Assembly (NCBI GenBank): GCA_015060205.1
Contig: SUYY01000001.1
Coordinates: 1-64,000, forward strand
Source: Bacteroidales bacterium
GTDB lineage: Bacteria; Bacteroidota; Bacteroidia; Bacteroidales; UBA932
DNA length: 64,000 nucleotides
Direction: 5' to 3'
The first letter of the stretch is position 1. Each line of letters opens with the position of its first letter. Of this stretch, positions 1 to 8,205 are shown one piece after another. The translations under genes were made by a program, and so were the position numbers. Under the pieces are notes generated by a model. The model saw nothing but the letters and a program-made list of their open reading frames with translations. It did no database searches and had not been told where the DNA came from.

Positions 1-127
1 TCACGACGCAGGAGTTTTGGCTTATACTCTTGCGTCGTGGCACGGATTCCGGAAAATGGCGCCGTTTTCCGTCACGACGCACGAGTTTAACATGAAAGTC
101 TTGCGTCGTGACAGAAAGCAGCAACTG
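1..127. repeat. 127-bp modular hairpin repeat, copy 1 (identical to 2093-2219)
   Basis: Base-for-base identical to 2093-2219. Contains CACGACGCA-N20-TGCGTCGTG at 2-39 and 73-110, plus near-palindrome GGAAAATGGCGCCGTTTTCC at 51-70. Confidence 0.9.
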
Positions 128-335
128 GTTCCGCCGCAAGGTGATCCACGAGGCTTCGTCCTCCATAGCAGACTTTATCGTGGCTTACCTTACCCCTAAG
201 CCGCAGGAAGAAGACCCGGAAGGGGTCATATAAGTGGCAAACATGATTTTTCTCCCTCTGTCGTGAGATACAGGGTGTTTTTACTATCTTTGTCGAAAAC
301 AACGCATTATATTCGCAGACGAATTCAAGCATGAA

Positions 336-1086: not shown

Positions 1087-1497
1087 ATGGCCATAGAACA
1101 TGAAATAGTGAAATTTGTCGCCGAAATGGAACTGGATGCAAAGACTACTGCACAGTTCACACAAGGTCTGAAGGATTCAAATGACAAATGTGCCGAACTC
1201 CGCAAGACCATCGTTGATACGCAAAAGAAACTAATGGAGATGAAGGCTGCGGGCAAGGAAAACTCCGATGCGTATAATGAACTTGAAAAAGACTTGGGAA
1301 AGTACAACACCCAACTCCAGAATGCCTCTGCACATGCCAACAAGTTCGCTTCCGCCCTTGGTGTCAATCAGATGTCAATGAACCAACTGAAGGCATATAC
1401 CAAGAAGTTGCGTAATGAAATGAACTCGCTTCATAAGGAGACGAACCCGGAACTCTGGAACAAGTACAACAAAAAACTGAAAGAGGCTGAGTTGTGA
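1087..1497 (+). pseudogene. phage tail tape-measure-like protein, N-terminal fragment
   Basis: Coiled-coil N-terminus with ...MSMNQLKAYTKKLRNEMNSLHKETNPELWNKYNKKLKEAEL typical of Bacteroidetes phage tape-measure proteins. The stop codon is supplied by the adjacent 48-bp repeat. Confidence 0.55.
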
Positions 1498-1616
1498 ATT
1501 ACTTTCAAGAATCGTATCTTTGACCTACTGATAACAACTTGGCGAAAATCGTTTTTATTGGGATTTGGGTTGTGAATTGCTTTCAAGAATCGTATCTTTG
1601 ACCTACTGATAACAAC
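1491..1616. CRISPR. minimal type II-C-like CRISPR: two 48-bp repeats and one 30-bp spacer
   Basis: GTTGTGAATT(A/G)CTTTCAAGAATCGTATCTTTGACCTACTGATAACAAC at 1491-1538 and 1569-1616 (1 mismatch). Intervening 30 bp: TTGGCGAAAATCGTTTTTATTGGGATTTGG. The repeat resembles Bacteroidetes type II-C repeats (GTTGTG...TTGCTTTCAA...AGTATCTTTGA...). Confidence 0.75.
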
Positions 1617-1690
1617 CAATAAGGATTATTCCGTTGTGAAAACACTTAAAGAGGGACTCAAATGAGTCTCGCTTTCTTATTTCTTTTCCT
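1617..1690 (+). ncRNA. tracrRNA-like tail (nexus plus terminal hairpin)
   Basis: CAATAAGGATTATTCCGTTGTGAAAACAC follows repeat 2 directly, then hairpin GGGACTC-AAAT-GAGTCTC (1653-1670) and a pyrimidine-rich tail. Resembles the AAGGATTATTCCGTTGTG nexus of Bacteroidetes type II-C tracrRNAs as recalled. Confidence 0.5.
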
Positions 1691-2092
1691 AACTGCACAA
1701 CAGGACTAAAAGTAGTCGGAAATAACGGTCAGAGTGGCAGGTGGCGTCGTTTCTTGGCCTGGAACTGTCATACCGGTATGGATAATCGTTCAAAAAACCA
1801 GTTTTGGATGAGAAGTGTGCGGGTTTTTAGCCCAAAACTGTCACACCAGTCTCTATCAGGTTCGATTGCGAAAGAGTAACAGTCAAGAGCGAGGACGGCC
1901 TTCAGGTCGAGCCGCCCGGAGCGCTTGAACTGTAGTTGCCGGAGGGCGTATATTCCGGCAACGGTGCTCGTGATATGATTTTCCTAAGGCCACCTGTAAC
2001 GGTTTTGCAATGATAACGTTACCGGTACCATTCAATCTGAGGGTATCTGGGACGGTTTCGTGGCAGAAGCGTAGCAGGTGGAACTGTATGTG

Positions 2093-2219
2093 TCACGACG
2101 CAGGAGTTTTGGCTTATACTCTTGCGTCGTGGCACGGATTCCGGAAAATGGCGCCGTTTTCCGTCACGACGCACGAGTTTAACATGAAAGTCTTGCGTCG
2201 TGACAGAAAGCAGCAACTG
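2093..2219. repeat. 127-bp modular hairpin repeat, copy 2
   Basis: Perfect match to 1-127; flanks differ. Confidence 0.9.
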
Positions 2220-2307
2220 AAGTGTCCACTGTCATTGCGAGATGTCTACGACACTAACTTCATCGTGAACAACCGTCTTCCCACAGTCATTGCAAGGAAC
2301 ACTTTCT

Positions 2308-2396
2308 CTGTCATTGCGAGGCTTCATCGAAGCCGTGGCAATCTGAATACTATGTACGAAAGATTGCCACGTCGCTATCGCTTCTCGTAATGACAG
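2308..2396. repeat. dispersed 'TGTCATTGCGAG' intergenic element, nested inverted repeat
   Basis: CTGTCATTGCGAG...CTCGTAATGACAG outer arms; CGTGGCAATCT...AGATTGCCACG inner arms. Partial relatives at 2231, 2286 and 5248. Confidence 0.7.
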
Positions 2397-2428
2397 TCAG
2401 TGTAAACTGTATATCGTTCCCGATTATT

Positions 2429-3847
2429 TTACAACATGGTTATCCGGAGGATGGAACGGGTGGAGGGGGTGACTTTGTAGCGGTCGTCGATGCGGGTACC
2501 GAGGAGGGCGGCGACGTGCTGCTGCTCGGCAAGTTCCGGGGTCCGGGTGTCGACTGCGATTATAGCGGACTCTTTGTCGAGGGTGCCGTATTTAAGGTCA
2601 GTGAAGAGGTCGCTGATCTTCTTTTTCCCCTTCATTCCGAGTGGGACCAGCCAGTCACCCTGACGCCATCTGCGGCATACAAAAGGGAATCTGAGAGAAT
2701 CCGCATCGAAGATGAGGGTTCCCTGAGGCTGTCTTAGGGGCATATCAGGGGTCCTGTCAATGATTTCCACCTGAAATCTTCTGCCGTTGAAATTATATGT
2801 TCCCTTGCCGCGGACCACCATGACAGGATCTGCATCTACAGGTGGCATGCACTCTTTCGGAATGATCTGAAGATAGTCGCTACCGGTGAGCAATATGTAG
2901 TCCTGAGACTCGAAACGCTTGCCGGACATGGTGCGGTCTGAATCCAGAAGTTCTTCAAGCGACGAGAGTACCTGCGAACTGAATCCATATGGCTCGAGAA
3001 TATAATACAGAAGATAACGCCAATGTCGGGTCGCAAGAAGTTTCGTCGTAGAGATCACCACATCTGTATTCCCGACAAGAACATCCGGCAATTGAGTGCG
3101 ACACCAGTCCTCGACAATGGCACCGGCTTCCGAAAAATATCCGATCTCACGGTTAAGGGTACGGACGAATGAAGGATTTATCTTCTCGAAGATGGGAAAG
3201 ACTTCGTTACGGATGCGGTTGCGTTTGTAGTCTGATTCGAAATTGCTGCTGTCGTGGCGATATGGCACCCGATGAGCCAGAACATAGCCTTCAATCTGTT
3301 TTCTGGTAAACTCCAGCAATGGACGACACACTGCTACAGGCAAAGTGTCGGAGATATCGGACATGCCATGGAGACCTTTAAGACCGGTGCCACGGAGAAG
3401 ATTGAGAAGGAGGGTTTCAGCGTTGTCGTTGGCATTGTGTGCAACGGATAGGGCCGCAAAGCCTTGTTCCTTGCATAGTTCGAAAAACCAGCCGTAACGT
3501 AGGTCTCGTGCCGCCATTTCGATGCTTATTCCTTTTTCACGGGCATATGCAACTGTATCGAAACGTTTCACGAAAAGTTCAACGCCGTTCTGCTCCGACC
3601 AATGGCGGACCAGTAATTCGTCACCGTCGCTTTCCTCGCCGCGAAGGGAGAAATTGCAATGGGCAATGGAAAATGAGTCTGCACCGAATGACTGAAGAAA
3701 GAGGTCTGCCATGCACATGGAGTCCATGCCGCCGCTTACGGCCAGAAGGAAGCGGTGAGGAGGGAGATTTCTCGAAATGACAATGGAGGCTGACCCGTCG
3801 ATCAGCCTCCTCATATCTTCAATTTTCTGTGCAAACCTTCTAAGCAT
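2429..3847 (-). CDS. tilS: tRNA(Ile)-lysidine synthetase
   Basis: PP-loop motif AVSGGMDSMCMADL; TilS C-terminal domain; 472 aa. Confidence 0.93.
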   Translation of the reverse strand: MLRRFAQKIEDMRRLIDGSASIVISRNLPPHRFLLAVSGGMDSMCMADLFLQSFGADSFSIAHCNFSLRGEESDGDELLVRHWSEQNGVELFVKRFDTVAYAREKGISIEMAARDLRYGWFFELCKEQGFAALSVAHNANDNAETLLLNLLRGTGLKGLHGMSDISDTLPVAVCRPLLEFTRKQIEGYVLAHRVPYRHDSSNFESDYKRNRIRNEVFPIFEKINPSFVRTLNREIGYFSEAGAIVEDWCRTQLPDVLVGNTDVVISTTKLLATRHWRYLLYYILEPYGFSSQVLSSLEELLDSDRTMSGKRFESQDYILLTGSDYLQIIPKECMPPVDADPVMVVRGKGTYNFNGRRFQVEIIDRTPDMPLRQPQGTLIFDADSLRFPFVCRRWRQGDWLVPLGMKGKKKISDLFTDLKYGTLDKESAIIAVDTRTPELAEQQHVAALLGTRIDDRYKVTPSTRSILRITML

Positions 3848-6981: not shown

Positions 6982-8205
6982 ATGAAAAAGACTTCGATGC
7001 TACTGTTTCTGGCTGTCCTCACGATTTCTTCATGCGGCACCGTCGCCCAATGGGGAGCCGCTAACAACGGCCAGAACTTCCAGGACGGAATCTACAGCAA
7101 CTCTCCATCCTTCAGATCGAAGGAAGAAAAGGAAAAATCCAAGTCAGAGACAGATGCACTCATAGCAAAGACCAAGGAATCCCCTATCTATCTCTTCGGA
7201 GACAAGAAAGACACCGTGATGATACCGGAAAACTTCTCCGCAAGAATACAGTATGACCAGAAGGTCGGCGGCACTGTCGTGACCGTAGGTGAAAATCCTT
7301 ATGACTGGAGATGGGACCTTGAAAACAGATACGGATACTATTACGGTCCGTACAGTCTGGGTTCCTCATGGTACTGGAGCAGACATTACGACCCGTTCTG
7401 GAATCCGTACTGGTACTCATGGGGATATAGTCCATGGAGATATTACAGTTACTATGACCCATGGTATTACGGAGGCTTCTACGACCCATGGTACTACGGA
7501 GGATGGTACGGAGGATATTACGGAGGATGGTATAATCCGTGGTATTATACGGGATATTGGGGATGGCACGACCCATGGCATCACCACCATCACCATCATG
7601 GCTGGTACGACCCTCACCATCATGGCCCGTCACACATCGGAGGTTCACCACACCACAGCGACCGCTACTACGGACTGAGAGCAAATACTGAAAGAAGAGG
7701 AGCGGTTTCCGAAGGCGGAAAGAGCGGTACAATAAGAACCGACGGAGGCACCATACGAGGAGGCATGAGCATAGGTAATACACGAAGCAGGTCGGCAAGT
7801 ACTGTCAGAAGGACAAACGGAACCGTTTCAAGGCCGGCTTCAGCGACCAGACCTTCATCAGCATCGAGCGTCTCCGCATCAAGAAGTGCAACGATGACCC
7901 GTTCTGCAACAGGAGCAAACTACCGCAGGCCTTCTTCATCCTCGAGCCAGAACACAGTAACCCGCGACCAGTCGGGCTACAGCAGAAGTTCTTCATACGG
8001 AAGCAGTTCTTCTTCGTACGAAAGAAGCAGTTCTTCTTCCGGTTATAACAGAAGTTCATCCTCCTACAGCAGAAGCGGAAGTTCATCCTCCTACAGCAGG
8101 AGTTCCGGCTATGGCGGAAGTTCATCCGGAAGTTCAGGTTACAGCAGAGGTTCATCCGGCAGTTCAAGTCACAGCAGAGGATCTTCAGGCGGTTACAGAC
8201 GATAA
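6982..8205 (+). CDS. low-complexity putative lipoprotein (YGGW/His-rich middle, Ser/Arg-rich C-terminus)
   Basis: Lipobox-like LAVLTISSCG; DPWYYGGFYDPWYYGGWYGGYYGG; HHHHHHH; SSS-rich tail. Confidence 0.75.
   Translation: MKKTSMLLFLAVLTISSCGTVAQWGAANNGQNFQDGIYSNSPSFRSKEEKEKSKSETDALIAKTKESPIYLFGDKKDTVMIPENFSARIQYDQKVGGTVVTVGENPYDWRWDLENRYGYYYGPYSLGSSWYWSRHYDPFWNPYWYSWGYSPWRYYSYYDPWYYGGFYDPWYYGGWYGGYYGGWYNPWYYTGYWGWHDPWHHHHHHHGWYDPHHHGPSHIGGSPHHSDRYYGLRANTERRGAVSEGGKSGTIRTDGGTIRGGMSIGNTRSRSASTVRRTNGTVSRPASATRPSSASSVSASRSATMTRSATGANYRRPSSSSSQNTVTRDQSGYSRSSSYGSSSSSYERSSSSSGYNRSSSSYSRSGSSSSYSRSSGYGGSSSGSSGYSRGSSGSSSHSRGSSGGYRR

Follow-up and report, generated by a model that had tools for sequence, protein, structure and literature searches.

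The window, a stretch of 64,000 nucleotides from a Bacteroidales bacterium, carries near its first base a short unit made of two repeats, one spacer and a tracrRNA tail, all on the + strand. The 48-bp repeats lie at 1491-1538 and 1569-1616, differ only at repeat position 11 (A1501 versus G1579) and enclose a single spacer of exactly 30 bp (1539-1568), which bears out the arrangement described in the initial annotation. Two 48-mers so alike, set at the spacing of a CRISPR array, would not arise by chance. Comparison with repeat databases, as that annotation had proposed, shows that both repeats match the Rfam model CRISPR-DR49 over its full length on the + strand, with scores (31.0 and 29.9 bits) that are below the gathering score of 41. 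No other copy of the 48-mer was found in the 2.45-Mb genome in a search that allowed up to three mismatches, and it is therefore not a dispersed repeat of non-CRISPR origin. The repeat and spacer sizes had been taken as those of type II-C arrays, and close relatives of this repeat do occur in intact type II-C loci of the genus.

No protospacer turned up for the spacer. Within its own genome it matches only itself at up to three mismatches, no exact 18- or 19-base part of it was matched in IMG/VR, and among the phage matches listed all had E values of at least 2, with no target identified. Among type II-C arrays, 60% carry mutations in their oldest repeat, chiefly within its first 15 nucleotides, and new spacers are added at the opposite end (PMC12080349). 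Because the position-11 mutation of repeat 1 fits this pattern, we regard repeat 1 as the "extra", oldest repeat, at the array's old end. Repeat 2 is retained to its last base.

The tail (1617-1675) consists of CAAT, the nexus region AAGGATTATTCCGTTGTGAAAACAC and a foldable terminator hairpin, and is followed by a pyrimidine-rich tract (1676-1690). A tracrRNA-like tail had been proposed here, and the region shares 90% identity with its counterpart in G209, the tracrRNA of a relative with an intact locus. Two details of that description need revision. AAGGATT does not follow the repeat at once, in that CAAT (1617-1620), the last four nucleotides before the nexus, separates it from repeat 2. Also, pairing in the hairpin goes beyond 7 bp: the stem GGGACTC/GAGTCTC (1653-1659/1664-1670) is extended by an outer AAAG/CTTT. 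One A-G mismatch interrupts this stem, whereas the stems of G209 and of a second relative, G024, have none. Of the parts of a tracrRNA, the nexus region and the terminator are thus in place, and the anti-repeat is missing.

To the left of the unit lies a phage-derived fragment (128-1490, + strand) with a tail-completion-like gene (336-665), small ORFs and the start of a gene that matches a PHROG tape-measure family (1087-1497). The fragment is colinear with prophages of G258, G233 and other genomes. Its similarity to the viral contig L094 (78% identity) ends at base 1490, just before repeat 1, and the L094 gene runs on past that point without a repeat. Oddly, the phage gene fragment is cut off exactly at repeat 1. 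To the right lies tilS (2429-3847, - strand; Pfam ATP_bind_3).

Intact loci and the chromosomal site

Matches to the repeat or the tail were found in 27 of 300 same-genus genomes, counting the window's own. Nine of the fetched loci hold array, cas2, cas1, cas9 and tail in one DNA piece (L026, L056, L057, L058, L059, L060, L065, L066 and L067); all have the components in this order, with repeats and tail on the same strand, and the repeat-to-tail distance in intact loci of the genus is 5.6-7.1 kb. The array of a tenth locus, L068, sits on the other side of the tail. The proteins of L026, the G024 locus, were recognized by profile as Cas9, Cas1 and Cas2. Two loci hold additional genes in cas operons that are otherwise of standard make-up: a 282-aa protein is encoded between cas9 and cas1 in the G209 operon (L056:10846-11694), and G024 has, between tracrRNA and cas9, a gene whose product matches PDC-S05, a PADLOC candidate family (L026:5163-6170).

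The tail core AAGGATTATTCCGTTGTGAAAACA is strongly conserved. Leaving aside the window, G168 (see below) and a Riemerella phage, every one of the 29 distinct tails has an anti-repeat 5' of this core. One example is GAAGCAATTCACAAT, which matches the 5' end of the repeat in reverse complement, and in each tail the bases upstream of AAGG pair with the repeat at its GTTGTGAATTGC end. Because of this pairing, crRNA and tracrRNA are both assigned to the + strand of the window. Each repeat contains on the + strand a promoter-like motif, TTG-N18-20-TAnnTTTG, of which we take TAnnTTTG to be the Bacteroides -7 element; repeat 2 has it as TTG-N20-TATCTTTG at 1570-1600. Across 14 arrays, the middle bases of the motif differ between species (TATCTTTG, TAACTTTG, TACCTTTG and TAAATTTG) and the remainder is constant. 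We therefore reject transcription of crRNAs from the opposite strand, which the initial annotation had suggested as part of a compact design with the terminal repeat as anti-repeat: the repeat-internal motifs run along the + strand, and all 29 anti-repeats pair with the opposite end of the repeat.

The tracrRNA of G209 ends beside tilS and is followed by tilS, DUF3078, proS and a homologue of the window gene at 6982-8205, which are the window's own neighbors (63%, 73%, 96% and 59% identity, respectively). On the other side of the G209 locus, sppA adjoins the array. The window's genome has sppA on contig C25, in the orientation that matches G209 and with 292 bp between the gene and the contig end; this contig end overlaps a 127-bp repeat at window positions 1-80. 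The overlap is consistent with adjacency of C25 and the window, which would place sppA beside the unit, but it is no proof, since the 127-bp repeat has a second copy. This palindrome-rich repeat flanks the unit in direct orientation (1-127, at the contig start, and 2093-2219, + strand), and about 80 bp of it occur at the C25 end beside sppA (L102:1-103), with shared flanks. It is probably the cause of the contig break here. On the evidence of these neighbors, the unit appears to occupy the same chromosomal gap, between sppA and tilS, that holds a complete locus in G209.

Neither cas9 nor cas1 was found in a search of the window's draft genome (81% complete, 89 contigs), a search that the initial annotation had recommended. 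At the site itself, nothing is left at 1616/1617 of the stretch between array and tracrRNA in which relatives have cas9-cas1-cas2. Of the two options left open earlier, an orphaned unit agrees with these results; a cas9 lying off-window does not, because the cas interval is deleted between flanks orthologous to those of an intact locus. To judge from the sequence, the native copy of cas9 is gone, and a Cas9 provided in trans would be possible, given the 81% completeness.

We conclude that the unit is very probably the relic of a type II-C CRISPR-Cas9 locus, in keeping with the earlier suggestion of a decayed array end, since a complete locus of the same type stands at the orthologous site in G209. 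It resembles Bacteroidota II-C loci (G024, G209 and CRISPR1 of Riemerella anatipestifer, PMC5006608) in its 47-48-bp repeat that starts with GTTGTGA and has an ACAAC-like end, its spacer of about 30 bp, its repeat-internal promoter motif and its tracrRNA tail, and it shares its site with G209. Unlike those loci, it has one spacer, a repeat joined straight to the tail, and no cas9, cas1, cas2, leader, tracrRNA promoter or anti-repeat in the window.

Comparison with L026 and L056 shows that the junction at 1616/1617 lacks the leader, cas2, cas1, cas9 and the promoter and anti-repeat of the tracrRNA. A deletion with one breakpoint at the 3' end of a repeat and the other at the 3' end of the anti-repeat would have removed them all. 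The last bases of the repeat (...ACAAC) and of the anti-repeat (...ACAAT) share the four-base word ACAA, and a single end-joining event between them would account for the junction; the array would also have been reduced to one spacer. Two other routes were rejected: deletion through the common promoter word TATCTTTG would leave the anti-repeat, and deletion through inverted-repeat pairing of repeat and anti-repeat would put a spacer in front of the tail, where a repeat is found.

Related fusions and foreign DNA in arrays

A gapped repeat-to-tail pattern applied to 400 genomes of the genus retrieved one fusion beyond the window, in G168 (L055:9159), where GATAACAG is joined to TATTCCGTTGTGAGAACA. 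As in the window, a complete repeat lies within about 1 nucleotide of a tracrRNA tail, and no Cas9 was found by the search used for the window's genome. Unlike the window, the G168 tail lacks CAATAAGGAT, part of the nexus, has no adjacent spacer and stands in other chromosomal surroundings. The same gapped pattern gave no further fusion in 393 genomes of the order; one extra match, in G543, is a normal tracrRNA with an anti-repeat. A stricter pattern run over the genome collection found no true fusion. Two matches in that collection are chance occurrences inside ABC transporter genes, and two matches in a looser scan of viral contigs are also due to chance.

Under a uniform distribution of deletion ends along the 77-bp period of the array, both junctions would lie no more than one base from a repeat end with a probability of about 0.0015, a value calculated post hoc, after both fusions were known. 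This placement is suggestive of the repeat end and the anti-repeat end as favored sites of joining during the loss of II-C loci, and the ACAA microhomology may bias the joining. Solitary II-C repeats occur in three genomes of the genus in which no Cas9 was found, G190 (L063:3616), G076 (L064:8365 and 9225) and G168 (L055:7411), and G022, where Cas9 was likewise not found, has a tail fragment without repeat or anti-repeat (L028:2225). Given these solitary pieces, relics of the II-C system seem to be common in the genus.

As a separate observation, the II-C arrays of several relatives have 0.4-2.3 kb of phage-like or foreign DNA directly between two repeats or against one, and its genes are truncated where the repeat starts. 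The arrays of G278, G266 and G059 contain 0.9-2.3 kb exactly between complete repeats, and the product of the G278 piece matches a phage tail-completion/neck family. G024 has the window's phage gene between a degenerate repeat and its array. Next to the G209 array there is a short stretch similar to window positions 152-203. Such pieces lie at L059:2585-3456, in L061 between the repeats at 3235 and 1956, at 1481-3762 of the reverse complement of L027, at about 13380-12943 of L026 and at 128-1490 of the window. Among complete plasmid-collection records, those of Phocaeicola and Prevotella nigrescens have arrays with regular spacing, and in Persicobacter only a single repeat-like word stands apart, 1.36 kb beyond a regular array. 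The long pieces may be insertions of unusual size, or they may be joins made in assembly through spacers that have the same sequence as phage DNA.

Residual function and alternative explanations

The promoter motif of repeat 2 is placed 20 nucleotides 5' of the tail, and it is therefore plausible that the relic yields some transcript. Such an RNA may be a tail without anti-repeat, or a spacer-repeat-tail RNA. In the predicted fold of the latter, the repeat ends form a 6-bp stem. The stretch between the promoter motif and the tail pairs with the repeat over only 5 bp (-4.7 kcal/mol), compared with -22.7 and -23.8 kcal/mol for the anti-repeats of G209 and G024, so that the repeat:anti-repeat duplex of a natural single guide would not be formed. 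We see no way for a relic transcript to arm a Cas9. Because the anti-repeat is absent and no Cas9 was found, no immunity is expected from the relic, and the unit is most likely inert and decaying. The decay is not far advanced, as repeat 2 has kept all its bases and the tail core carries no mutation.

The promoter motif, the undamaged tail core and the stem formed by the repeat ends are also what might be expected of a functional compact guide that works with a Cas9 in trans, either as a natural single-guide RNA or with the repeat as anti-repeat for crRNAs from the opposite strand. We consider this highly unlikely. Besides the absent anti-repeat and the failure to find cas9 in the 81%-complete genome, the repeat promoter has the wrong direction for opposite-strand crRNAs, the G168 fusion has lost part of its nexus, and the 393-genome scan of the order gave no fusion of the same pattern. 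A known counterpart is tracr-L, the natural single-guide RNA of the type II-A system of Streptococcus pyogenes, a long tracrRNA form that retains the anti-repeat and represses cas genes. There, too, guide-like sequence, repeat and tail can be part of one transcript; unlike tracr-L, the unit in the window has neither an anti-repeat nor a cas gene to repress.

Misassembly of an array repeat with a tracrRNA tail is a very improbable account as well, even though the assembly is a draft in 89 contigs and the contig starts with a 127-bp repeated word. The repeat and anti-repeat ends have only ACAA in common, which is too short for a graph join; if the 127-bp end repeat reflects the word length of the assembler, as we infer, long words span the junction; and the separate assembly of G168 has a similar fusion.

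The phage genes immediately upstream invite the reading that the unit belongs to a phage, the one with the tape-measure gene beside repeat 1, and serves it as a mini-array or RNA anti-CRISPR; mini-arrays and solitary repeats, with one or two repeats beside phage genes, are known from viruses (PMC11656645; PMC10651486). This reading is already largely refuted, and we give it minimal credence. The unit differs from virus-borne elements in its position on the chromosome, at a CRISPR site bounded by sppA and tilS where G209 has a complete locus, in bearing a tracrRNA tail and in standing beside a phage gene truncated at the repeat, and the homologous gene of L094 carries no such unit at that point. 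The word tracrRNA does not occur in the paper on RNA anti-CRISPRs (PMC10651486). Independently of the window, four Riemerella phages (RAP44, L031:2013; L103; L104; L105) conserve, between two genes of unknown function, a tracrRNA-tail-like core, AAGGAGTATTCCGTCGCGAAAACA, which follows a diverged anti-repeat-like stretch. Pairing with the host repeat is weak, at -7.0 kcal/mol, compared with -22.8 for the host anti-repeat, and the element is possibly a phage-borne tracrRNA mimic.

Finally, it is extremely doubtful that the fused unit has been kept as a decoy, transcribed from the repeat promoter, that occupies or diverts any Cas9 brought in by mobile elements; if true, loss of cas9 would have left a resident Cas9 decoy in the form of an anti-repeat-less tracrRNA or a crude natural single guide.

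Significance for CRISPR-Cas9 loss

As the relic of a type II-C locus, the unit is ordinary in kind and a well-resolved case of CRISPR-Cas9 loss. The loss is clean and an intact orthologue is at hand, which makes visible the parts that were lost and those that were retained. The unit also serves as a caution that a repeat beside a tracrRNA tail is no evidence for a compact guide.
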